Below are positions 823 to 31,283 of a DNA stretch of 64,000 nucleotides, one piece after another (positions within the stretch are counted from its first letter, which is position 1; every line of letters begins with the position of its first letter). The notes under the pieces were generated by a model that saw only the letters and a program-made list of their open reading frames with translations, had not been told where the DNA came from and made no database searches. Source of the stretch: Roseiflexus sp. RS-1 (GTDB taxonomy: Bacteria > Chloroflexota > Chloroflexia > Chloroflexales > Roseiflexaceae); contig NC_009523.1 in the NCBI RefSeq assembly GCF_000016665.1, positions 2,852,001-2,916,000 of the forward strand. The letters run 5' to 3'. Both the position numbers and the translations under genes were made by a program.

Positions 823-1020
823 TTAATCAGTATCGCCAGCGATCACGATCTGCGAACGGATCCCCAGAGCAGCGAGTTGTTGCAGACAGATAACGATGTA
901 TTTTGCTGCGATACGCCGTTCTTCTTCCGTCGTGTCGAGCATCGGGTCATAGCCGGGCAACTGCGATTTCACGAAGAGTCCGTCGAGGATTTCCTGCTCA
1001 TCGGGAGTGAGTTCATCCAT
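823..1020 (-). CDS. Small acidic protein of unknown function (65 aa)
   Basis: A 65-residue protein with an acidic N-terminus (MDELTPDEQEILDGLF) and an amphipathic second half (AAKYIVICLQQLAALGIRS). It lies 3 nt upstream of the partial gene at 1-819 on the same strand, which suggests one transcript and possibly a partner role. No membrane segment, no metal motif and no family that I recognise. The ribosome-binding site is weak, so the start is not firmly set. Confidence 0.6.
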   Translation of the reverse strand: MDELTPDEQEILDGLFVKSQLPGYDPMLDTTEEERRIAAKYIVICLQQLAALGIRSQIVIAGDTD

Positions 1021-1158
1021 GGCCGTTACTTTCTGGTCGGTTGCAGAAGCGCTCCCGGAAATAGCGCCACATCGCCGGAACGGGGCGTTGCTCGCAGCGC
1101 GACCAATACTATCGCATATCGGTACGCTCTTATAGTACCACAGTTTTACCTTCCATGA

Positions 1159-1174
1159 CTGACAGATATGTCAG
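1159..1174. promoter_or_regulatory. Short perfect inverted repeat between two minus-strand genes
   Basis: CTGACA and TGTCAG separated by 4 nt form a perfect 6-bp inverted repeat just downstream of the epimerase stop and upstream of the 65-aa gene. No T-run follows on the minus strand, so it looks more like a protein-binding site than an intrinsic terminator. No regulator is implied by the neighbours. Confidence 0.3.
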
Positions 1175-1196
1175 AAAACCACCATTGCGTCACACC

Positions 1197-2264
1197 TCAA
1201 CGATCTGCTCCGTCCAGCGTCGCCAGGCGGAAGACCGTCGTATGGCGGTAGACATCGCCCGGTCGCAGGACGGTCGATGGAAAATGCGGATGATTCGGCG
1301 AATCGGGAAAATGCTGGGTTTCCAGGCAGAGCGCGGCGTACTTCGTGAATACATGCCCGTTGCGTCCGGTCATGGTTCCATCGAGCGAGTTGCCGGTGTA
1401 CAGATGGATGCCGGGTTGCGTGGTCAGGACATCAAGCACGCGACCGCTGACCGGATCGACCAGACGCGCTGCAGGGCGTAGTTCGCCAGCGACTCCATCG
1501 ACCACCCAGGTGTGATCATACCCTCCAAGCCCATTGCGGATCTGTTCGTCGTCGGTATCAAGGCGGGCGCCGATTGCCATCGGCGTGGTGAAGTCCATGA
1601 CAGTACCGTGCACAGCGCGGATTTCGCCAGTTGGAATGAGCGTCGCGTTGACCGGAAGGAAGAAACTGGCAAACAGTTGCAACTCGTGATGGAGAATATC
1701 ACCCGCACCCGTCAGATTGAAGTATGCATGGTTCGTCAGGTTGACAATCGTTGCACGATCGGTTGTCGCACAGTAATCGATGCGTAACGCACTATCACCT
1801 GTCAATGCATAGGTGACGACAACTGTCAGGTTCCCCGGATATCCTTCTTCACCGTCACGACTGACATACATCAGTTCCAGCGCCGGTTCGTCGCCATCGG
1901 CAAGAGGACGCGCCTTCCAGATTACCTGATCGAAGCCGACCGCGCCGCCATGAAGATGATGTGCGCCGTGGTTGCGCGCCAGGTGGTACGTGGTTCCATC
2001 GAGTGTGAAGATTCCATTGGCGATCCGGTTGGCAAAACGCCCGACAATGCTGCCGATGTATGCCGGATTATGCAGATACGGGGGCAGGGTATCGAAACCG
2101 AGGACAACATCGCCAGAGCGCCCGTGCCGATCCGGTGCGCGCAGCGACACCAGCGTGCCGCCGTAGGTGATAATCTGCGCTTCGATGCCCTGCGCGCCGC
2201 GCAGCGTGAAACGTTCGACCGTCCGACCATCAACGACGCCAAAAGGTTCGGCGATCATGCTCAT
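1197..2264 (-). CDS. galM: Aldose 1-epimerase (galactose mutarotase)
   Basis: Interconverts the alpha and beta anomers of free aldoses such as glucose and galactose in the cytoplasm. The 355-residue protein has the expected family length. Motifs are NHGAHHLHGG near residue 100 and LTNHAYFNLTG near 179, which supply the two active-site histidines, and LETQHFPDSPN near 316, which supplies the catalytic glutamate. The start at 2264 (MSMIAEPFG) is preferred over an upstream in-frame codon at 2324 because an AAGGAG box lies 7 nt before it, and the extra N-terminal 20 residues are basic and unlike the family. The gene follows the tricorn gene by 83 nt on the same strand and may share its transcript. 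Confidence 0.93.
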   Translation of the reverse strand: MSMIAEPFGVVDGRTVERFTLRGAQGIEAQIITYGGTLVSLRAPDRHGRSGDVVLGFDTLPPYLHNPAYIGSIVGRFANRIANGIFTLDGTTYHLARNHGAHHLHGGAVGFDQVIWKARPLADGDEPALELMYVSRDGEEGYPGNLTVVVTYALTGDSALRIDYCATTDRATIVNLTNHAYFNLTGAGDILHHELQLFASFFLPVNATLIPTGEIRAVHGTVMDFTTPMAIGARLDTDDEQIRNGLGGYDHTWVVDGVAGELRPAARLVDPVSGRVLDVLTTQPGIHLYTGNSLDGTMTGRNGHVFTKYAALCLETQHFPDSPNHPHFPSTVLRPGDVYRHTTVFRLATLDGADR

Positions 2265-2347
2265 CAGTGTGCTCCTTGCGCGTCTGACAGATTGCGCCAT
2301 CCTGGCACAGATGACAATGTTCACACCGGATTTTACGTGACATAATA

Positions 2348-5300
2348 TTATCTATCGAGGTCGTCCAGCAGAACGCGCACCGCCGCTTCAAGTTGCACAT
2401 CACGTCCATAGCGCCATTCCCCAAGACGCAGCGGTACATCAACATCGACCGGTCGTCCATGACCTTCCAGGTCTTCGCCTTCCGGGGTCGTGACCCGGAG
2501 TTGCGGCAGTTTGATCGACGACCCATCAATAAGTCGCCGCGTGAATGTGCCGATCACCGCGCCAGCCGTCGGACGTCCGACAACCTTTCCCAGCCCCTGG
2601 CGGCGATACGACTCACTGAAGGTTTCGGTGTTTGAACTTGACAGTTCATTCGTTACCAGGACGGTGGGCTTGTTCAGCACGCGATTACCGAAAATGTGCG
2701 ACGAGTCGGCAGTGGAGCGATTGCGGAATGTGCTCATCAGCAAACTGCGACGCATCAGCACATCGAGAATAAACGTCGCCGTGTGACCGCCTGAGTTGAA
2801 GCGCACATCGATGACGACTCCTTCCTTGTGGTGCGCTTCAACATCGAGATCGGCGAGAAACTGCTGGTACGCGTCGTAATTCATCTTGCGAATGTGCACA
2901 TACCCCAGACGTCCATCACTTGCCCGGTGAACGATCTGTTCATTATCGAACACCCACGCCCGGTAGCAGAGCCAGTCGTACTGATCCGCTGAAACCGGAC
3001 GCACCTCGACATCACGCTGCGATCCCGACGGATCGACGACGCGCAGGACGACGCGCCGACCTGCAGTTCGTTGGAGCAGCGCATCGAGCGATGTATCGCC
3101 CGTCAGCGCAACACCATTGACCGCCAGGATGACGTCGCCGGGTTGAAGTGCTCCATTGGGCGCTGCTGCTGCCGGGCTATCCGGGATGACCCTGGCAATG
3201 CGCAGGCGTCCGCTCCGCAGATATTCAACCGGATCGAGCGTGATGCCAAGGTAGCCATCCTGTCCGCTGGCGCCGCTCCCCACCACGCCAGCGTGCGAGG
3301 AACGCAGTTCACCAATCATCAAATTGATAAGGAGATACAGTTCAGCAGTGGTTTGCGCCCCCAGGATCAGCGGCGCGTACTGATCGTGAATTGCATGCCA
3401 ATCGACGCCACGGAAATGTTCATCGTAGAAATAGTCGCGCAACAGGCGCCAGCACTCCTCGAAAATCTGGCGTTTTTCCTGTGCAAAATCGATCACCACT
3501 TCCGCTGTGATCGAGAGGGTCGTCTGCTCTCCTTTCGGGAATTTTCGCACCGCGATGGTTCCGCCGTCGAGGAAGCAGATGCTCTTGCCATCGGGAGCGA
3601 ACCAGGCATGCGATTTCAGCCCGGACGTGTTGGTCAGTTGCCGTGGACCCTGATCGGCGCGCGCTTCGTCAAGCGGCAAGGTCCAGAGATTCTGTCGCCC
3701 GGCAACCGTTGCGCTACAGATCAGATCGCGCCCATCCGGGCTGATGCACAGTGCAGTTGCATCCATTTGCGGTGGTGTCAACAGGCGTAACCGACGTTCG
3801 ATGCCGCTCAGGATGATCCTGATCTCTTTGACTGTCTGGGAGGCTTTGACCGATTTTGAACCTTCCCTCTCGTGCACTGTTCCATCTTCGGGTGGCCCAT
3901 CGGGTTCAACGATGGGAAGAACCGGCAGTGGTTCGCGATCCGCATCGGTATGGCGTTTATGGTCGGGAACATGCGCAACATGACGCGACGCACTTTCGCT
4001 CTTGCGCGTGCTGCTCTGAGCGGACTCGAACAACCGCTCGAATTCAGCCTCGCGAAAGATGGGCGGTTGTGGTTGCAGATCAACGCGCGCAATCTGCGAC
4101 TCGGCACGGTACTGTCCGGTCGTGAAGACAATAAAGCGACCATCCGGCGACCAGAGCGGCCCTGCTGCCTGAATGTTGCTGAGGAACGAAATCTGGTGCG
4201 GCTGTTCCTCATCGATGCGCTGTACATAGAGATTGCTGAAAAAGCGCTCGTCCTGGGCACAGAATGCCAGCCATCGACTATCGGGCGACCACGAGAACGA
4301 CGCGCCGAACACAAAGTGCGCCCGGATGAACCCGCGGTCGGCGCCACTGACAACATCGATCAATCGAATCTCGTCATCTCCGCTGGCATAGGCGATCCAG
4401 CGCCCATCCGGCGAGAAGCAGGGCGCGCTCTTGCGCTTTGGTCCGTACGTCAGGCGTGTTTCACTACGACCGGGAAAGTCGTAGCGGTACACCTCCTCGT
4501 CGCCATGACGGTCAGAGACATACACCAGGCTGCGGCTATCGGGCGACCAGGAAACATCACTATCGCGGAACGCCGTCTGAGAGACGCGGTACGCCAGTCC
4601 CTGGCGTGGATCACGCTCATTCTCTTTGTCGGCGAAATCGGCAAAAATCTTGCCGCGCACGATGAACGCAATTTTCTTGCCATCGGGTGAGAGCGCCAGT
4701 TCCTGCACATCGCGCGTATATGTCTGTACCCGCACCGGCGTCAATTTCGCATCCTGCCGCACAGTAATCGGGATCGGCGCCATATCGCCGGAGGTAAGAT
4801 CGAAGATCCAGATGCCAAAATCGCGCTCAAACGCAATCTTTTTGCCATCAGCGCTGATCGAGGGCCAGAGCAAACGACCGTCCGTAAACGAGGTCACACG
4901 TTCGGCGACACCCCCATCACGCGGGACAACCCACAGATTCTCACACCCATCGCGATCAGAAACGAAGTAGATCAACCCACTATCAGGCGTCCACATCGGA
5001 CAGTAATTCAATCCGGGTGCATCGCTCAATCTCTGAAAATCGTCGGCGTCCGGCGCGTTCGATGCCAGCCAGAGTTCTGCACCGCCATAGGGGTTTGGTC
5101 CGCGTCGCCACCACGGATCGCGCAGCAGGCTGAACGCTATCCAGCGACCGCACGGCGAAACGGACACGGTGCCGAGGCGCTCATACGGTTGCGCGATCCA
5201 GCGGATCGGTGTGTCGCCCGAAATGGCAACCCGATAGATCGCTGTTCCCTGGCGCTCGCGTTGCGAGGTGAAATAGATGGCGTTGCCATCGGGCGACCAG

Positions 5301-5596
5301 CACTCAACGGCGCTCTGCGTGTCGTGATACGTCACCCGACGCACCTCACCGCCGTCGAGCGGCACGACATACACATCCCCCTGACCGGTTCGCGTCGAGG
5401 TGCAGGCGATTGCCGCGCCATCGGGCGACCAGCGCGGGAGCATATGACCGGCAGGATGGGCAGTCAATCGCTCGGCGCGACCTCCATCGGCAGCCACAAG
5501 CCAGATATCGCCAGCGTACACAAATGCGACACGATTTCCCGTGGGATCAAGAGAAGGCGCACGGAGATAGGGACGTGCAGGATACTGTTCGGTCAC
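2348..5596 (-). CDS. tri: Tricorn protease homologue (S41 family, with PDZ domain)
   Basis: A large cytosolic self-compartmentalising serine protease that trims oligopeptides released by upstream proteases. At 1082 residues it matches Thermoplasma tricorn (about 1070). The N-terminal half has repeated propeller blades marked by (W/F)SPDG motifs. A Ser/Lys/Glu-rich insertion lies near residues 535-600, followed by the second part of the propeller region. Then come the C1 region with the likely catalytic His (RSSHAGV, near 768), a PDZ domain (GYLGITLDP and following), and the nucleophile serine in NELSSSNTETF near 985. An acidic residue near 1043 (PEGEDLEGHGRP) fits the third catalytic position. 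It starts with GTG at 5596 behind an AGGAAAGGG stretch; the ATG at 5604 is out of frame. A good promoter lies upstream. Confidence 0.93.
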   Translation of the reverse strand: MTEQYPARPYLRAPSLDPTGNRVAFVYAGDIWLVAADGGRAERLTAHPAGHMLPRWSPDGAAIACTSTRTGQGDVYVVPLDGGEVRRVTYHDTQSAVECWSPDGNAIYFTSQRERQGTAIYRVAISGDTPIRWIAQPYERLGTVSVSPCGRWIAFSLLRDPWWRRGPNPYGGAELWLASNAPDADDFQRLSDAPGLNYCPMWTPDSGLIYFVSDRDGCENLWVVPRDGGVAERVTSFTDGRLLWPSISADGKKIAFERDFGIWIFDLTSGDMAPIPITVRQDAKLTPVRVQTYTRDVQELALSPDGKKIAFIVRGKIFADFADKENERDPRQGLAYRVSQTAFRDSDVSWSPDSRSLVYVSDRHGDEEVYRYDFPGRSETRLTYGPKRKSAPCFSPDGRWIAYASGDDEIRLIDVVSGADRGFIRAHFVFGASFSWSPDSRWLAFCAQDERFFSNLYVQRIDEEQPHQISFLSNIQAAGPLWSPDGRFIVFTTGQYRAESQIARVDLQPQPPIFREAEFERLFESAQSSTRKSESASRHVAHVPDHKRHTDADREPLPVLPIVEPDGPPEDGTVHEREGSKSVKASQTVKEIRIILSGIERRLRLLTPPQMDATALCISPDGRDLICSATVAGRQNLWTLPLDEARADQGPRQLTNTSGLKSHAWFAPDGKSICFLDGGTIAVRKFPKGEQTTLSITAEVVIDFAQEKRQIFEECWRLLRDYFYDEHFRGVDWHAIHDQYAPLILGAQTTAELYLLINLMIGELRSSHAGVVGSGASGQDGYLGITLDPVEYLRSGRLRIARVIPDSPAAAAPNGALQPGDVILAVNGVALTGDTSLDALLQRTAGRRVVLRVVDPSGSQRDVEVRPVSADQYDWLCYRAWVFDNEQIVHRASDGRLGYVHIRKMNYDAYQQFLADLDVEAHHKEGVVIDVRFNSGGHTATFILDVLMRRSLLMSTFRNRSTADSSHIFGNRVLNKPTVLVTNELSSSNTETFSESYRRQGLGKVVGRPTAGAVIGTFTRRLIDGSSIKLPQLRVTTPEGEDLEGHGRPVDVDVPLRLGEWRYGRDVQLEAAVRVLLDDLDR

Positions 5597-5848: not shown

Positions 5849-8554
5849 ATGCAACGTATATGGTTCCTGGTTCTTGCGGCAGTGCTGCTGGCATCATGCG
5901 GCGCGCCGCAGCCATCGGGCGTGGCGACACCGGCGTCGCCGCGCGGAACGCCGTCAGCCGGTCAGAACGAGAAGGTCACGATCTCATTTGCGGTATGGGA
6001 GTATGAACGCAGCGTCTATCAACCGCTGGCAGAGCGGTTTATGTCCGAACATCCTGACATCAACGTGGTGCTCGTATCGCTTGACGATATCACAATAAAC
6101 GAACCTGCCAGTTCGCTCGACCAGTTGCGCCAGGTTGTGTCGGCTGCCGATACTGCCCTTGTCCCTTTTAGTTACGATACCGAAGAATTTGCGGTAACTC
6201 CAGATGCATTCGGCACGCCTTTGCTCCTCGACCTGAAGCCGCTGATGGACGCTGATGCGACCTTTCAGCGCGACGATTTCTTTCCCGGAACCATCGAGCG
6301 CTATGCCGCGAAGGGCGGCATCTGGGCGCTGCCGCGCCTCCAGTGGGTGTCGCTAATGGTCTACAACCGCACCCTGTTCCAGAACGCCAATCTCCCGGAG
6401 CCGCGCCCCGGATGGACGTGGGAAGAGGTGCTGGCAGCCGCCGAGCGACTGACCGGGCGCAGCGGCTCCACCAATCTGACCTACGGCCTGGTGGAGCCGA
6501 GCAGGGGTATATTGCCGCTACTGGGATTGCTCAGCGCACAGGGCGTCGATGTGCTGAACGCAGCGCCAATGGAAACCGATCTGACCGCGCCGGAGTATGT
6601 CGCCGTCCTTGAACGCCTGCGCGATCTGTACCGCCGCGGCGTCCTGGTCGAACCATACCCACGCAGCGGTCCCGCCAACGACCCCGCGCAGTTGGTGCGT
6701 GAAGGGCGCGTGGCGATCTGGAGCGATATGCCCTACATCAGCAACGACGACAGCACGCGATGGACGCCGGACTTTCCGGTGGGGCGCGTCCCGTTCCCGG
6801 CGTCGGAACTGAGTCTGCCCTTTATCGGCTCTGGCGACACGTTCATCATCAGCGGCGGCACGGCCCACCCGGAAGCCGCCTGGCGCTGGATCGGGTGGCT
6901 GTCGCGCCAGCCGACCTGGCACCCGGAATATGAAGCGATCATCGGTCTTATTCCGGCGCGGCAATCGTTGGCGCAGCAGACCGACTTCTGGCGCAATCTC
7001 GACCCGCAGACTGCCGAGGCGTACCGCTGGACGCTGGCGAACAGCAAGCCGGTGCCGGAGGCGCTGTTCAGGGCCAACGTTATAGGCGCGTTGATCGAGG
7101 CGATGCAGACCGCGCTCAGCGACCCGAAGGCGAATGTACGTCAGGCGCTGGCGGAAGCGCAGCGTCAGATGCAGGAATCCATCGCCCGACAGGAACTCAC
7201 GCCGACGCCCAAGCCCAACCTCAACCCGGTGGTGGTGGCGACGCCGAAGCCACAGGAAGCGCCGGTCGGCGCAACAACCATCACCTTCAGTATGTACGGC
7301 TACGATTCGTCTGCGTTCCGTCAGATTGCGCGCGCCTTTCGCGAACAGCGCCCCGACATCTTCGTGCAGGTGCAACCGTTCGAGTGGACCCCGGACACGC
7401 CGCAGGTGAGCGCCGCGACGCTGGCGCAGACCAGCGATTGCTTCTCCTGGAGCAGACCGCTCCAGACCAGCGATTACCCGGCGCTGCTCGACCTGCGCCC
7501 GCTGCTCGACGCCGACCCCGCCTTCCCGCGCGATGATTTCCCGCCGGCGATGCTGGCGTACTACAGCAACGACGGACGCCTGTACGGGCTGCCCTACATA
7601 ATCGGCATGCGCGTGCTCTCGTACAACTACGCCGCGTTCGAAGCCGCCGGGCTGCAACCGCCGCGCGCCGACTGGACGCCGGACGATTTTCTGGCGGCGG
7701 CGCAGGCGTTGACGAAAGGCGATGGCGAGCAGCGGCAGTGGGGCTACATTCCCCTGGGCGGACCGCAGGCCGATCTGCTTTTTTTCGTCGGTCAGTTCGG
7801 CACAAGCCTGACGGTCGGCGACGGGAAAGACCTGCGCCCCAACTACACCGACCCGCGAACGGTCGCCGCCATTCGCTGGTACCTCGACCTGAGCGCCGTC
7901 CACAAGGTGACGCCGCCGTTCAAGTTTCGCTACCGGCGTGATGATCCCGGCGGCAAAGATCGTTCCTATGAATTGATTCAGTCGGGGCGGGTTGGGATGT
8001 GGCTGGGGCGTGGCGGCGAGATACCGCCGGACAGTGACATCCGGATTGCGCCGTTGCCGGTGGGCAAGGCGGGATTGCCCCCCGACGAGGTGTTTGCGCT
8101 CGGTCTGTTCATCTCGGCGAACACACAACAGGCGCAGGCGTGCTGGGAGTGGATCAAGTTCCTCTCCGGGGATGCGACAATGATGTACGGGTATACGATG
8201 TTGATCGGCAATATGCCTGCCCGCCGTTCGATTGCGCAGTCGGAGGCGTTCCTGAAACAGTTTCCGCTGGGGCGCGCAGGAATGCTCGATGCGTTCGACG
8301 CAGCGCTGGCTGTGCCGGTGCGCACGACGGTCGCGAGCAGCGCGAATGCGATCTACAGTCTCTCTCACGACTCGTACTGGCTCTTCCAGGCGCTGAGCAA
8401 CACGCTGGAGAAGGGGGCGAATCTCGAACAGGAACTCGCTACTGCGCAGCGGCTCGCCACGGCATTCGCCGAATGTATGAACCGTGACGGCGCAAAGGCG
8501 GCGCAATGTGCGAGAGAGGTCGACCCCAATTACAAGGGGTACAATGTCGAGTAG
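5849..8554 (+). CDS. Twin-domain family 1 solute-binding lipoprotein, copy 1
   Basis: Membrane-anchored extracytoplasmic binding protein of the sugar-type (family 1) ABC superfamily. The start at 5849 gives a lipoprotein signal with lipobox LASC, Cys17, and an AAAGG box 7 nt upstream; a GTG at 5834 is less likely. The 901-residue chain holds two homologous binding domains (about 30-440 and 475-900), each opening with TISFAVWEYE or TITFSMYGYD and each with a variant of the FMSEHPDI/FREQRPDI motif. A Thr/Pro linker (TPTPKPNLNPVVVATP) joins them. It is closely similar to the protein at 10230. No MalF/MalG-type permease is nearby; the downstream partners are MacA/MacB-like. Ligand unknown. Confidence 0.88.
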   Translation: MQRIWFLVLAAVLLASCGAPQPSGVATPASPRGTPSAGQNEKVTISFAVWEYERSVYQPLAERFMSEHPDINVVLVSLDDITINEPASSLDQLRQVVSAADTALVPFSYDTEEFAVTPDAFGTPLLLDLKPLMDADATFQRDDFFPGTIERYAAKGGIWALPRLQWVSLMVYNRTLFQNANLPEPRPGWTWEEVLAAAERLTGRSGSTNLTYGLVEPSRGILPLLGLLSAQGVDVLNAAPMETDLTAPEYVAVLERLRDLYRRGVLVEPYPRSGPANDPAQLVREGRVAIWSDMPYISNDDSTRWTPDFPVGRVPFPASELSLPFIGSGDTFIISGGTAHPEAAWRWIGWLSRQPTWHPEYEAIIGLIPARQSLAQQTDFWRNLDPQTAEAYRWTLANSKPVPEALFRANVIGALIEAMQTALSDPKANVRQALAEAQRQMQESIARQELTPTPKPNLNPVVVATPKPQEAPVGATTITFSMYGYDSSAFRQIARAFREQRPDIFVQVQPFEWTPDTPQVSAATLAQTSDCFSWSRPLQTSDYPALLDLRPLLDADPAFPRDDFPPAMLAYYSNDGRLYGLPYIIGMRVLSYNYAAFEAAGLQPPRADWTPDDFLAAAQALTKGDGEQRQWGYIPLGGPQADLLFFVGQFGTSLTVGDGKDLRPNYTDPRTVAAIRWYLDLSAVHKVTPPFKFRYRRDDPGGKDRSYELIQSGRVGMWLGRGGEIPPDSDIRIAPLPVGKAGLPPDEVFALGLFISANTQQAQACWEWIKFLSGDATMMYGYTMLIGNMPARRSIAQSEAFLKQFPLGRAGMLDAFDAALAVPVRTTVASSANAIYSLSHDSYWLFQALSNTLEKGANLEQELATAQRLATAFAECMNRDGAKAAQCAREVDPNYKGYNVE

Positions 8555-23886: not shown

Positions 23887-23916
23887 CACAATCACGCGCG
23901 AGGCGAGAGGGGAGAG

Positions 23917-24618
23917 GCGCGAGGCGCGAGGGGTTGAAGGTTGCACGTTGCACGTTGCACGTGGGACGACAACGTGGAGGGGCGCAGCGGCGCTGCGCCC
24001 GTACCGGCAGCGGGGACAGTGGCGCGAGGCGCGAGGCGCGAGGGGTTGAAGGTTGCACGTTGCACGTTGCACGTGGGACGACAACGTGGAGGGGCGCAGC
24101 GGCGCTGCGCCCGTACCGGCAGCGGGGGCAGTGGCGAGGGGCGCGAGGCGCGAGGGGTTGAAGGTTGCACGTTGCACGTTGCACGTGGGACGACAACGTG
24201 GAGGGGCGCAGCGGCGCTGCGCCCGTACCGGCAGCGGGGACAGTGGCGCGAGGCGCGAGGCGCGAGGGGTTGAAGGTTGCACGTTGCACGTTGCACGTGG
24301 GACGACAACGTGGAGGGGCGCAGCGGCGCTGCGCCCGTACCGGCAGCGGGGGCAGTGGCGAGGGGCGCGAGGCGCGAGGGGTTGAAGGTTGCACGTTGCA
24401 CGTTGCACGTGGGACGACAACGTGGAGGGGCGCAGCGGCGTTGCGCCCGTACCGGCAGCGGGGACAGTGGCGAGGGGCGCGAGGCGCGAGGGGTTGAAGG
24501 TTGCACGTTGCACGTTGCACGTGGGACGACAACGTGGAGGGGCGCAGCGGCGCTGCGCCCGTACCGGCAGCGGGGACAGTGGCGAGGGGATGAGGCAAGA
24601 GGCGAGCGAGGCGCGAGG
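23917..24618. repeat. Six-copy 112-bp tandem repeat array
   Basis: Units start every 112 nt (a shared block begins at 23940, 24052, 24164, 24276, 24388 and 24500). Each unit contains heptamer-like segments (GCGAGGC copies, GGTTGAA, three GTTGCAC copies). These are followed by GTGGGACGACAACGTGGAG, then a 9-bp stem with 3-nt loop (GGGCGCAGC GGC GCTGCGCCC), then GTACCGGCAGCGGGG. Copies are nearly identical; differences are a GGGGACA/GGGGGCA variant, a short GCGAGG-type variation, and one C-to-T change in a stem (fifth copy). Long open frames across it on both strands are artefacts of composition and a period not divisible by 3. Confidence 0.95.
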
Positions 24619-24668
24619 GGCCTCCTCACTCTAGCGAAATGCAACACGCATGATTGAGCCATGTGCGT

Positions 24669-24730
24669 GCCGGGTGCGCGGGCGTCCCGCCCGCATGACC
24701 GTATGAGGCGCGCAATCCCGGCGGTCAACT
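24669..24730. repeat. Dispersed 62-bp repeat, copy 1
   Basis: This 62-bp block, starting GCCGGGTGCGCGGGCGTCCC and ending CCGGCGGTCAACT, recurs at 35781-35842 with two base differences. It contains the palindrome GCGGGCG TCC CGCCCGC. It lies between the 112-bp array and the RHS gene. Confidence 0.85.
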
Positions 24731-24775
24731 GTTTTGCACGTCGCTGTACCCCCTGACCTGCGCAGGCGGCACTGC

Positions 24776-24862
24776 ATGAACTCCTGGAAACTCACTGCCA
24801 GCACGTTCGTGATCGCAGGAGCGTGTTTCGCCGGAGCGTGGCCCATCCGCCCCAGGGTGTGA
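24776..24862 (+). other. Out-of-frame signal-peptide-like leader of the RHS gene
   Basis: An ATG at 24776 opens 28 codons reading MNSWKLTASTFVIAGACFAG and then AWPIRPRV before TGA. This has the charge and hydrophobic core of a signal peptide. It overlaps the 5' end of the RHS frame in another phase. A -1 or +2 frame change between about 24838 and 24860 would join it to the RHS protein, so it is probably the original start lost to a frameshift. Confidence 0.5.
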
Positions 24863-26487
24863 TACCGATCAATCTGCTGGAAGGGGAGACTGTTCGGCAG
24901 GACATCGCTCTCCGCAGTTCGCCCTCCAAAGCCTGCCTGCCCTCGCTCCAGGGGTGGCAGGTCAGCCCCTTCATCGGTTCGGCGACCTATGCGTATCCGC
25001 TCGAGGTTCCCGCAGGCGCGGGCGGTTTGCGCCCGCCGCTGGCGCTGCACTACGACAGCGCCGCCACCGACGGCGCCAGCGGTATGCGCGAAAAACAGCA
25101 GGCCGGCTGGGTCGGCAAAGGATGGACCCTCGACCCCGGCGGCGCCATCGCGCTCAACCGCGTTGTCATCAATCTCGACACTGCCAGCTGGGTGGATTAC
25201 TATGCGTTGACCCTCAACGGGCGCGCCTACGACCTGATGCGCCAGGAGGCGCGCGCTGGCGTTAGCAACCCCGACCCGAACAACCCCGCCCACCGGGTCT
25301 GGCGCCCGACGAGCGATGCCGCGCTGCGCATCCAGGCGGACTGGATCGGCTGGACTTGGGAAGGTAATCCTGAACTCGGCGCGACCATCGTCACCGTCGT
25401 CGACCTCTGGGAGCGCACCGTCGGCGGCGCAACGACGCACTTCTACCGCTTCGGCGCCGACGTCATCGGCGTGCGGCGCAGCGACCAGGGAACGCAGTAT
25501 CTCTTCAGCGACCACCTGGGAAGCGTGAGCGCAGCGACGACCGCGAGCGGCGCGCTCGTAGGAATGCAGCACTACGACCCGTGGGGGCGGGTGCGCACCG
25601 GCGGCATCGGACTGACGGCGCGTACCTTCACCGGGCAGCGGCTTGATGCAACCGGATTGTTGTATTATCATGCCCGCTACTATGATCCCGCGCTCGGACG
25701 GTTCATCTCGCCGGATAGCATCGTTCCTGAGCCAGGCAACCCGCAGAGCCTCAACCGTTTTGCGTACGTTTACAATAATCCGCTGAAGTACACCGATCCC
25801 AGCGGGCATTGCCCCATCTGCATCAGCGTCGCTGTGGGCACGGTCATCGATGTGGCGACCGACTTTTTCATCGCCAAGGCTACTGGCACCGAGTTCGACC
25901 TGGTCGAATCGCTCACGGTGAACGGAGCTACCAACCTCCTTACAGCTGGCTTTGGCGGCAAGCTGGCCAAGCTGCGCCACCTGGGGAAACTGGCGGGGTT
26001 AGTGGACGATATGGCCAGCCACGGCGATGAGGCCGCCGATGCGCTGCGGGCGGTGGAGAATGCTGGCGATACACTACGAAGAATTCCACTTGGATTCAAG
26101 AATGCTAATGAGTTCGCCCAGTTTGGCGCTCGCTTGAAGGGTGGTTTGGAGAACGCCGGGTATGAGGGTGTTCAGGCCATCTTCCAAGGTAGTTCCGTCA
26201 CCGGTGTGAAATATACAACAGGTGCACCTTTCGACGTTGGTCGTGTGAGCGACTTTGATATCGCTCTGGCGAGTCCCACTCTCTTGCAGCGCGCTAAGGA
26301 ACTTGGCATCGAGCTTCGGGGCGGCGGCACACGGACAGGTCCGCTTGGGAGAGGAGATCTTGAAGCTTTGGGACTCCTCGATCTCAGAGAGGAACTTAGT
26401 CAACTTGTTGGGAGAGATGTTAACTTCATGATCTACAAGTCCGTTGAAGATGCGGTGAGACGAAGCCCAAGCATTTTTGTACCGTAA
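24823..26487 (+). CDS. Short RHS protein with nucleotidyltransferase-like toxin tip
   Basis: Polymorphic toxin candidate. The 554 residues have three parts. The N-terminal part (about 40-120) is like the start of SpvB/RHS shells. The RHS core end follows (YLFSDHLGSVSA, TGLLYYHARYYDPALGRF, then the NPLKYTDPSG boundary near 326). The variable C-terminal domain is about 400-554. The tip has GSSVTG, then 15 residues, then SDFDIAL, matching the GS...DxD pattern of polymerase-beta-type nucleotidyltransferases. YD repeats are almost absent, so the shell is internally shortened. The GTG start at 24823 lacks a proper ribosome-binding site and the likely true leader is out of frame. A small gene with a strong ribosome-binding site follows after 41 nt. 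Confidence 0.75.
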   Translation: MFRRSVAHPPQGVIPINLLEGETVRQDIALRSSPSKACLPSLQGWQVSPFIGSATYAYPLEVPAGAGGLRPPLALHYDSAATDGASGMREKQQAGWVGKGWTLDPGGAIALNRVVINLDTASWVDYYALTLNGRAYDLMRQEARAGVSNPDPNNPAHRVWRPTSDAALRIQADWIGWTWEGNPELGATIVTVVDLWERTVGGATTHFYRFGADVIGVRRSDQGTQYLFSDHLGSVSAATTASGALVGMQHYDPWGRVRTGGIGLTARTFTGQRLDATGLLYYHARYYDPALGRFISPDSIVPEPGNPQSLNRFAYVYNNPLKYTDPSGHCPICISVAVGTVIDVATDFFIAKATGTEFDLVESLTVNGATNLLTAGFGGKLAKLRHLGKLAGLVDDMASHGDEAADALRAVENAGDTLRRIPLGFKNANEFAQFGARLKGGLENAGYEGVQAIFQGSSVTGVKYTTGAPFDVGRVSDFDIALASPTLLQRAKELGIELRGGGTRTGPLGRGDLEALGLLDLREELSQLVGRDVNFMIYKSVEDAVRRSPSIFVP

Positions 26488-26528
26488 CTACCATGCAATT
26501 ATAGCCTCGATGAGTTCAGGAGGGAAGT

Positions 26529-26855
26529 ATGAGGACTGACGACCTCTACGGATTTAAGCATGATAATCTGGAGGCGGCGCGGGTAGCAGTTGAGCGAGCA
26601 CTTGGTATCAGACTGGTCGCACACGAGAGCTTATATCTCGGTGGAGATTACTATCGCTTGGGAAGCATGTGTGAAGAGCACTTTATACTGCGGCGGAACA
26701 TTGATCTCCTTGACAACGAGCCAGCGGAACGAGAATTTCCTGAGACAGGTATCCTACTTTACGTGGAAGGGACTGAGCGATCGGAAGAGCTTGAGCAGAT
26801 ATTAACTACGAGGATTGCAGGACTAAGCCTGCTAAGAAGAAAGAAATTTGATTGA
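26529..26855 (+). CDS. Candidate immunity protein for the RHS nucleotidyltransferase toxin
   Basis: A 108-residue acidic cytosolic protein (MRTDDLYGFKHDNLEAARVA and onward) starting 41 nt after the RHS stop, with AGGAGG 5 nt before the ATG. Position, size and charge fit a cognate immunity protein; the family is not one I recognise. Its base composition is lower in GC than the core genes, as is the toxin tip before it, which suggests the pair moved in together. Confidence 0.65.
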   Translation: MRTDDLYGFKHDNLEAARVAVERALGIRLVAHESLYLGGDYYRLGSMCEEHFILRRNIDLLDNEPAEREFPETGILLYVEGTERSEELEQILTTRIAGLSLLRRKKFD

Positions 26856-27329: not shown

Positions 27330-27827
27330 ATGGACAGGAAACCGCGCAAGAAGCGCATCAAGTATTCTGAAGGGCAATGGTTTGCTGTCCCTTTGAAGGA
27401 TGGAGGATATGCCCTGGGAGTCATCGTGCGGGGAAGTTACAAAACGAAAGGAGGCTTGGGCTATTTCTTTGGACCCCGGTATGAAAGCGTTCCGGATGAG
27501 CAAGAGACGTGGACCAAGCAGCCTTCGGATGCCGTGTTGATCGCCTGGTTTAGCGACCTGGGCATTACACGGGGGAAATGGCCGCTGATTCCCAGCACGT
27601 GTCCGTTCCGGCGAGAGGAGTGGCCGATACCCACATTCAAGCGGCTAGATGCGCTCAAGCCCGAAAAGGGATGGCTGGTAGAATATAGTCAAGACACTGA
27701 TGGCGTGCCAATCCCGGTGCGAGAGCGCTATTGCAATGCAATGGAACTATTGGACATACCTGATGACGGAGATTATGGCTATGAAGCGGTGGAGATTGTT
27801 TTGACCAAACGTCTCGCTGAAGGGTAG
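27330..27827 (+). CDS. Imm26-like immunity protein, orphan
   Basis: 165 residues starting MDRKPRKKRIKYSEGQWFAV with an AGGAGAGG box before the ATG. The opening (EGQWFAVPLKDGGYALGVIV) resembles the Imm26 family of polymorphic-toxin immunity proteins, whose members begin with a small beta barrel of this pattern. No toxin lies directly upstream, so it may be left from a lost toxin tip or protect against a neighbour's toxin. The assignment is by motif and context. Confidence 0.6.
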   Translation: MDRKPRKKRIKYSEGQWFAVPLKDGGYALGVIVRGSYKTKGGLGYFFGPRYESVPDEQETWTKQPSDAVLIAWFSDLGITRGKWPLIPSTCPFRREEWPIPTFKRLDALKPEKGWLVEYSQDTDGVPIPVRERYCNAMELLDIPDDGDYGYEAVEIVLTKRLAEG

Positions 27828-28223: not shown

Positions 28224-28440
28224 CATCTCTTCAGCGACCACCTGGGGAGTGTGAGCGCAGTTCCCGGTACTCAGTATCTCAGTTCTCGGTTCTCAGTTCT
28301 CGGTTCTCAGTTCTTGGTTCTCGGGTTTCACCGGGCAGCGACTTGATGCGACGGGATTATTGGAGTATCATGCCCGGTACGATGATCCGGCGCCTGGACG
28401 GTTCAGCGCACCCGAGAGCATCGTTCCTGGCGCATGGCGC
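28224..28440 (+). pseudogene. RHS core remnant interrupted by a heptamer tract
   Basis: At 28224-28260 the sequence encodes HLFSDHLGSVSA, matching YLFSDHLGSVSA in the RHS protein at 24823. It breaks off at that point into simple repeats (28261-28326). It then resumes in another frame with FTGQRLDATGLLEYHARYDD and onward to SIVPGA. About 50 codons of the core are replaced by the repeat. Nothing here can make a complete RHS protein. Confidence 0.75.
28261..28326 (+). repeat. Heptamer tract inside RHS remnant
   Basis: Variants of GGTTCTC and AGTTCTC/AGTTCTT with a 7-nt period. It is the same family as the tract at 17621-17727 and the one at 32532-32588. Confidence 0.85.
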
Positions 28441-29884: not shown

Positions 29885-30745
29885 TGTAGTGCGCCGGAGC
29901 GCATCATTCCCGGCGCAGGGGCGCTGACCGCTGCGCCGCACGACGCGGTCGCGTAGCCAGCGTGGGCGCAGGGCGGCGGCGCGCCAACCACGCCGCAGGA
30001 GCTCAACCGATACGCATATGCGCAGAACGCCCCCCTGCGCTGCACCGACCCGACGGGGCGCTGGATCGAGCGCGCGGTTGATATCGCATGCATCGCCTAC
30101 GATATCTGGGACATTCGCCAGAACGGGCTGACGTGGGACAATGGGCTGGCGCTGGCGGCGGATGTGGGCGGCCTGCTCCTGCCGGGGCTGACCGGCGGCG
30201 GGATGCTGGTACGGGCGGTTGCTCGTGGGAATAAGGCGTTAGATGCGGCGCGGGGTATTCACACGGCAGTCAATGCGGCCCCGGCAGCCAATCTGGCTGA
30301 TAACATCCATGCTGCCGGTCAGCTTCGCTATCTACGCCATGCAGACCCTGTCGCTCTCGAGACGCTCATGGGTCTGGGGACGCGGAACGGCGATCAAATC
30401 TTCGATATTTTGAGCTCGGCTGGCAGTGATGCTGTTATGCGAGGAATAACTGACCGTGTCGGGAATCAGATTATGCTCCTGGCGGGAAACCGCAACAAAG
30501 GTTTGAGGCACATCCTCGGCCGCCGCCTGACCGGAGATATTCCTGGAGGATATCCTACTTGCTTCTCGAAGAAAATAAAGGTTGGCGACGTGGTTGACTT
30601 GATAGCCCAAACAGTCCAGAATGGGGAACGAGTATTGGACGAGACACGTGGCAACTGGGTCTATCGATGGCGCTATGAGACCTGGGGGTGGATAACCGTT
30701 GTGGTCAATCAGGCAGGGGAGGTGGTCAGTGCGTATCCCAAGTAG
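29885..30745 (+). pseudogene. RHS tip fragment with BECR-like toxin domain
   Basis: RHS core traces appear at 29890 (SAPERIIPG) and from 29999 in one frame as ELNRYAYAQNAPLRCTDPTG, the shell boundary. That frame is open from 29957 to 30745 and continues through a hydrophobic pre-toxin part (VGGLLLPGLTGGGMLVRAVA). The final domain has LRHILGRRLTGD, CFSKKIKVGDVVDLIAQTV and ends ITVVVNQAGEVVSAYPK. That ending is typical of BECR-fold RNase toxins. There is no ATG and no shell, only a possible internal GTG at 30164, so it looks like a displaced orphan toxin tip. Confidence 0.6.
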
Positions 30746-31283
30746 ACCACTCAGGACATTCACCGGGCCCTTTCAGGACATCCGGCTGGATTTCACACCG
30801 GAGCCGCCGTTGACGGAACAGGAGCGCTCTCACTACAGTCAGAACTATCCGACGACGCTAGCCTATCTCCACGTTTACCTGGGCGAGGAGGATGCAACCG
30901 AACTCCTTCCATCAGGTTACCTGTTATGGATATTGGACGGCCTGCTTCATGGAGTCGCTGATCTGGTAACTGGTCGGTCTGCAACAGCTACAAGCGATTG
31001 GGGGAGCGACCCATGGCAATTCGATCTGCGAGGCGATCCCGCGCACAATCGCGTTTATATCACCCTGCACGTGCCTGGGCGATGGGTGGCGATGCGCGAT
31101 GTATTCGCGCCCTTGGACCGGTTCGGAGAGGAAGTGATCCGCTTGGCCCAGAAGTGGGAGAAGTACCTGCATAGTCTCTACCATGAGGAAATGATCGATC
31201 CGGAGTGGGGCAAGGACTACCGCCTGTTTCAGCAGCACTTGAAGCGGGCGCAACACGCACTGCGAAGCTATAAAGGGCGTTAA
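30729..31283 (+). CDS. Candidate immunity protein for the RHS tip fragment
   Basis: 184 residues from a GTG at 30729 (reading MRIPSRPLRTFTGPFQ) with GGGGAGG 6 nt upstream. The start overlaps the end of the toxin frame by 17 nt, the tight coupling expected of a toxin-immunity pair. The protein is soluble and Trp/Tyr/Leu-rich (GYLLWILDGLLHGVADLV). No family recognised. A GTG further upstream at 30699 lacks a ribosome-binding site. Confidence 0.65.
   Translation: MRIPSRPLRTFTGPFQDIRLDFTPEPPLTEQERSHYSQNYPTTLAYLHVYLGEEDATELLPSGYLLWILDGLLHGVADLVTGRSATATSDWGSDPWQFDLRGDPAHNRVYITLHVPGRWVAMRDVFAPLDRFGEEVIRLAQKWEKYLHSLYHEEMIDPEWGKDYRLFQQHLKRAQHALRSYKGR

Follow-up and report, generated by a model that had tools for sequence, protein, structure and literature searches.

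A putative polymorphic toxin–immunity pair with a predicted nucleotidyltransferase-type tip at a reduced RHS locus of Roseiflexus sp. RS-1

Introduction

What can an RHS gene of only 554 codons, almost devoid of shell, be doing with a nucleotidyltransferase-like motif at its C-terminus and a small gene directly behind it? The locus lies in the window analysed here, a stretch of 64,000 nucleotides that is part of the 5.80-Mb single-contig genome of Roseiflexus sp. RS-1. An earlier note, made from the letters alone, had described it as a miniature RHS toxin with a polymerase-β-type (Pol-β) nucleotidyltransferase tip and its own immunity gene. In the accessible parts of the literature surveyed, the polymorphic toxins of nucleotidyltransferase type that are named are RelA/SpoT-like. 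Taking the evidence below together, we think it probable that the tip and the 108-residue gene form an undescribed polymorphic toxin–immunity family with a Pol-β-type nucleotidyltransferase tip, and that the locus is an orphan cassette.

Results

The open reading frame and its RHS core end

The open reading frame (ORF) at 24823–26487 (forward strand) encodes 554 residues from a GTG start, and the ORF at 26529–26855 begins 41 bases after its end; both were found where the earlier note had placed them. The features of the locus are as follows.

24823..24915, forward: residues 1–31 of the ORF, matching intergenic DNA of the sister genome G301, from between its hydrogenase maturation protease gene and its RHS gene (blastn/tblastn, locus L030 6552–6644)
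24914..24924, forward: deletion junction 1, where intergenic DNA and RHS trunk meet in an 11-nt microhomology, GCAGTTCGCCC (blastn)
24914..25379, forward: SpvB-like N-terminal RHS trunk remnant, residues ~32–186 (95% identity to G301)
25377..25379, forward: deletion junction 2, N-terminal trunk to C-terminal core (similarity to L030 ends and similarity to L015 begins)
25377..25811, forward: RHS C-terminal core, including TIGR03696 at 25573–25809 and the DPSG motif (profile and paralogue identity)
25812..26073, forward: pretoxin linker, residues ~331–417 (between conserved core and conserved tip)
26074..26487, forward: predicted nucleotidyltransferase-fold toxin tip, residues 418–554 (AlphaFold2 model, Foldseek, alignments)
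26529..26855, forward: putative cognate immunity gene, 108 residues, predicted ferredoxin-like α/β fold (linkage in 14/14 loci, model)

A profile search places the RHS-associated core end (TIGR03696) at residues 251–329 of the ORF with an E value of 7e-23, and the DPxG motif of RHS core ends is present as DPSG at residue 325. Two paralogues in the same genome share 94% nucleotide identity with this core until position 25811 and none thereafter, in the variable tip region; such a break is the usual sign of an RHS core with exchangeable tips. A pretoxin linker of ~90 residues follows, so that the GS...SDFDIA motif, although present as the earlier note had it, does not lie “right after the RHS boundary”: ~125 residues intervene.

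The start of the ORF is doubtful, since the GTG at 24823 stands only one base from an AGGAG and lies in DNA that is intergenic in the sister genome. No signal peptide was seen in the 554 residues. The ATG at 24777 just 5′ of the ORF (MNSWKLTASTFVIAGACFAGAWP) was considered as the start of a signal peptide and rejected, being in another frame, with a G301 counterpart that terminates at a TGA.

The short shell is a remnant on comparison with a sister genome

No canonical YD repeat was found in the 554-residue ORF, nor does Pfam RHS_repeat match it, so that nothing in it corresponds to the YD-repeat barrel with which a functional RHS shell encloses its toxin. At the same locus, past the same hydrogenase genes, G301 carries an RHS reading frame over 2,080 residues long, which runs off the contig end and has six scoring RHS_repeat stretches, and relatives in the family and order have frames of 1,343–2,605 residues with the same N-terminal segment as the 554-residue ORF. 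Residues 1–31 have neither an RHS-gene start codon nor a signal peptide, and the G301 frame opposite them is unrelated to the G301 RHS ORF. At junction 1, the segments 24484–24924 and 24914–25379 map 1.6 kb apart in L030, leaving ~1.6 kb missing relative to G301. The trunk remnant behind it, residues 32–186, corresponds to the middle of the G301 RHS protein, has a weak match to SpvB (PF03534) under the curated cut-off, and shows a dN/dS of about 1 against G301 (17 changes). At junction 2, at least 4.4 kb of YD-repeat shell is missing.

Because this comparison at one and the same locus reveals deletions of ~1.6 kb and at least 4.4 kb, the short shell is, judged by the syntenic sister gene, the remnant of a gene of more than 2,080 residues after two deletions; a gene shrunk by design was rejected on the same ground. 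The description as a miniature RHS shell is thus right in that it has almost no YD repeats, and wrong in so far as it implies functional housing. When a central stretch of 1,466 residues from the G301 protein was searched for in the rest of the genome, no more than ~120 residues of it turned up, in two paralogues, and the longest of the genome's RHS-core frames has 576 codons: no full-length RHS shell was found in the window's genome, which keeps several orphan RHS ends.

As a separate observation, the sister RHS gene has a signal-peptide-like start (MFRLRLFRPVVTLALVATLHSGF, L030 ~6000–6200, minus strand) that is out of frame with its trunk, with a run of nine C between them. At this run, a copy in the window's genome does not differ from L030 in net length, and control by frameshift or slippage is possible.

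Predicted fold of the toxin tip

An AlphaFold2 model of the tip, built with five sequences as input, has a pLDDT of 90.1 and a pTM of 0.86 and displays the core fold of the Pol-β superfamily. The best eight Foldseek matches in the PDB are all of nucleotidyltransferase type, headed by the minimal nucleotidyltransferase HI0073 (1no5; probability 0.98, E 0.016, TM 0.41/0.53). Since the scores are modest (TM 0.41–0.53, with no match at E 0.001), the tip is placed among Pol-β nucleotidyltransferases at the level of predicted fold only. Profile alignment (hhalign) with 18 NTP_transf_2 proteins of the same genome gives a P of 0.003 at a probability of only 4%, pairing GSSVTG with GSxxRG, SDFDIA with SDVDVL, and GRxVNFMIY with GRxVDLV. 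The fold claimed by the earlier note is therefore borne out by model, Foldseek and profile alignment, and no other fold was predicted. Its suggestion of a family search, by contrast, led to no family covering the tip: Pfam, NCBIfam, PHROGs and PADLOC have no match, neither the PF01909 profile nor the RelA_SpoT profile matches any member of the tip family, and the sole hint from family libraries, at E 0.15, comes from the putative nucleotidyltransferase family DUF294. A sequence-profile search of the PDB gave only Arc and Top7, which we took as chance matches.

Active-site motifs

GSSVTG begins at residue 456 and SDFDIA at residue 476. The hG[GS] and Dx[DE] motifs are invariant in the 14 tip sequences aligned, in which G456, S457, D477, D479, R504, T505, and R531 never vary; among 11 homologues, 29 columns of the tip are invariant. 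Because of these columns, and because a homologue of the partner gene follows 14 of 14 tips, the alignment indicates that the GS...SDFDIA pattern is not a chance one.

The third catalytic carboxylate of the superfamily, on the other hand, is absent: every one of the 14 tips has N, T or A at this position, never an acidic residue, and in the window it is N534. In MntA, mutation of GS or DxD abolishes AMP transfer, and D71 helps to bind Mg2+ together with D39 and D41 (PMC7641770). Ordinary NMP transfer by the tip is thus not assured, as the counterpart of D71 has been replaced throughout. Between GS and DxD, the tips have a conserved TGxPFDVGR loop with about nine extra residues, so that the spacing is GSX19DXD where the MNT family has GSX10DXD. 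The superfamily placement consequently depends on a predicted fold together with two of the three catalytic motifs.

The 108-residue partner

The partner had been described as an acidic gene with a strong ribosome-binding site, and this is upheld: the protein is mildly acidic (pI 5.1; 21 D/E vs. 15 K/R), and AGGAGG at 26518 stands five bases ahead of the ATG. Its model (pLDDT 91.0, pTM 0.85) predicts a ferredoxin-like α/β fold, for which matches to PDB structures are only partial. A homologue lies directly after the tip in all 14 loci compared, which span Chloroflexota, Actinomycetes, the orphan-cassette array of a Pseudomonas, and prophage-like contigs; in six of them, tip and partner gene overlap by four nucleotides in an ATGA start–stop. 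The identities of tips and partners correlate (rho 0.71, permutation P 0.0002), to which shared ancestry contributes. What the earlier note called the toxin's own immunity gene is accordingly seen as a cognate, co-inherited partner, and we believe that it probably protects against the tip.

Copies of the tip on several carriers

Searches with the last 135 residues of the ORF uncovered two further tip copies in the window's genome, making three open copies of the pair, the third on a non-RHS trunk. One tip copy was found in a sister Roseiflexus metagenome-assembled genome (MAG), in which both tip and partner are broken (pseudogenised), the partner being still recognisable. In Lentzea, the tip ends a giant RHS protein, right after a PT-HINT domain (L014), and on a Pseudomonas aeruginosa plasmid (L031) it sits in an orphan-cassette array together with deaminase, EndoU, and glutamine deamidase domains. 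The tip is present in six of 394 other actinomycete genomes. The 11-sequence alignment detected it in four viral-contig loci, in which an earlier four-sequence scan had detected none; an annotated phage collection held no homologue. A match in genome G166 (L010/L017) was dropped as spurious, its frame being of nonsense composition.

The carriers are therefore of several kinds: RHS (the window and L015), RHS with HINT (L014), a non-RHS trunk (L016), a phage portal (L044), and an orphan array (L031). In L044, the frame at 1017–3182 is a portal protein (PF04860) with the toxin tip at its C-terminus and the immunity gene immediately next to it. The same tip on unrelated delivery trunks, with an immunity-gene homologue immediately downstream and co-inherited in 14/14 loci, leads us to class the tip and the 108-residue gene, by sequence, as a polymorphic toxin–immunity pair. 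Between paralogous copies, dN/dS is about 0.15 for the tip and 0.10 for the immunity gene, values that in sequence terms signify purifying selection on both.

Three loci deserve description in their own right. In the prophage-like contig L043, consecutive frames at 3323–4444 and 4728–5405 share the carrier segment NKPD.RGPWSAAVDA but differ in their tips, of which the nucleotidyltransferase tip belongs to the second frame; the locus looks like a displaced tip exchange in a phage. On a Leptospira interrogans plasmid (L032, ~3000–4400), an RHS end carries a domain distantly related to the tip (GSSVTG..SDIDVFV), and the gene downstream is different and looks unrelated. L015 3951–11618 (2.072–2.080 Mb of the genome) is an array of RHS ends with varied tips and partners. 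It includes, besides the nucleotidyltransferase tip, one with a SUKH-family gene (SMI1_KNR4) behind it and further ones, and near-identical short trunks carry two of them.

Discussion

Relation to known systems

The closest structural comparison is with the MNT proteins (NTP_transf_2, PF01909), such as HI0073 (1no5) and MntA of the HEPN/MNT systems (7bxo, 7ae2), with which the tip has its predicted fold in common. In both, hGS follows strand 1 and DxD is on strand 2, and the “L..GR.V.” strand of the tip aligns with the strand of the third Asp. The tip differs in its longer GS-to-DxD spacing, the additional TGxPFDVGR, and the replaced third Asp, and also in its setting: it is a toxin end with its own immunity gene rather than an antitoxin. 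We do not class it as a PF01909 MNT protein because of the missing profile match and the other motif spacing.

Pol-β-related domains have been put to use as toxin tips before. The RelA/SpoT-type polymorphic toxins (PMC3482391), with the adenosine 3′-pyrophosphokinase tips of MuF proteins (PMC12226406) among them, are an example, in phage-borne and secreted toxins alike. The window's tip differs from these in having MNT-like motifs and a distinct immunity protein, and, as it has no RelA_SpoT match, is not classed with them. As in the MuF-type polymorphic toxins of phages (PMC5576092), relatives of the tip occur in prophage-like contigs between terminase and portal; unlike these, no MuF domain was found, and in L044 it is the portal protein itself that carries the tip. 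With the orphan Rhs-CT/RhsI and cdiA-CT/cdiI modules (PMC3967940, PMC7043789), the locus shares a tip and immunity gene that stand apart from any full delivery gene, and the family shares their cassette arrays, as in L015 and the Pseudomonas plasmid. The difference is that the displaced end in the window keeps, through its two deletions, a fused fragment of N-terminal trunk. In a literature search of largely open-access papers, the tip was not named anywhere.

A proposed mechanism and its rivals

What computation shows directly is a predicted fold, GS and DxD that never vary, the linkage of the pair across phyla, its several scaffolds, and a broken shell. On the strength of the model, the tip is probably a nucleotide-transferring toxin. 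We infer that, inside a target cell, GS and DxD would bind an NTP with Mg2+, and that the tip would move the nucleotide onto an essential cell component, either a protein hydroxyl or an RNA end, leading to growth arrest; the immunity protein would bind the tip and so block the transfer. From the carrier RHS gene, the two deletions have removed the N-terminus and most of the shell, leaving an orphan toxin–immunity cassette that, as it stands, is probably undelivered. Because delivery looks lost, the cassette, open to recombination, may persist as a reservoir for it or as an internal toxin–antitoxin pair.

The latter role, in which expression from an internal promoter, with regulation of its own host, would be why the cassette is kept, is compatible with an orphan toxin–immunity cassette and we regard it as possible, if rather doubtful: three open copies of the pair exist in a genome in which no full-length shell was found to deliver them, and an orphan Rhs acts as a toxin–antitoxin in Salmonella (PMC7043789), but the broken tip and immunity gene in the sister genome imply that the pair is dispensable. 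Much harder to uphold is the idea that the short RHS works as a miniature, having evolved into a compact shell for holding and delivering the tip, which we consider very improbable. Although neither junction interrupts the reading frame and paralogues show purifying selection on the C-terminal core (dN/dS 0.10–0.17), the first 31 residues are intergenic DNA in a relative, signal peptide and YD repeats are lacking, the relatives' frames with this N-terminal segment are 1,343–2,605 residues long, and the trunk has a dN/dS of about 1.

As for the chemistry, the loss of the third carboxylate in 14 of 14 tips would suit a pseudo-enzyme that has the nucleotidyltransferase fold and only binds nucleotide or RNA, poisoning the cell by binding. 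We hold this unlikely, as GS, both Asp of DxD, R504, T505, and R531 do not vary from phylum to phylum, which is what an active site that has been kept looks like. An alarmone or pyrophosphokinase toxin of RelA/SpoT type, making (p)ppNpp or pyrophosphorylating tRNA, has slimmer prospects still. It belongs to the same broad fold class as the tip and is the sole nucleotidyltransferase-type class in the available part of the 2012 survey (PMC3482391); against it, no tip member matches RelA_SpoT, and the top structural matches are MNT-type and RNA nucleotidyltransferases, with no RelA/SpoT among them. The reading that we prefer thus remains a nucleotide-transferring toxin with a cognate immunity protein in an orphan cassette. 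Its extension to an unnamed, widespread toxin class, defined by two-carboxylate Pol-β nucleotide transfer, the TGxPFDVGR loop, and a ferredoxin-like immunity family and common to RHS proteins and prophage portals, is put forward tentatively, at somewhat less than even chances.

A tip of MNT-like type whose immunity gene is strictly linked to it would bring in a further toxin chemistry, with an NTP and a target that could be assayed directly, and tips devoid of the third Asp offer a test of how members of the Pol-β superfamily can function when they have two carboxylates. In sequence, the locus also displays a large RHS gene shrinking to an orphan cassette.

Neighbourhood of the locus

A tandem array at 23912–24589 separates the RHS remnant from the hydrogenase maturation protease gene; its unit of 112 bp is present in 6.1 copies at 97% match, of which about one copy aligns at the same position in the sister genome. 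Downstream of the cassette, 27330–27827 is an Imm26-family immunity gene (PF15428, 81 bits) that no obvious toxin adjoins, an orphan in this sense, and 28324–28431 is a fragment of an RHS core end. Finally, at 30164–31283, a 193-residue ORF starts with the pretoxin segment GGLLLPGLTG, common to the L015 cassettes, and is overlapped by an ORF of 194 residues; from their sequences, these two, which belong to no Pfam family, are probably another orphan toxin–immunity pair.
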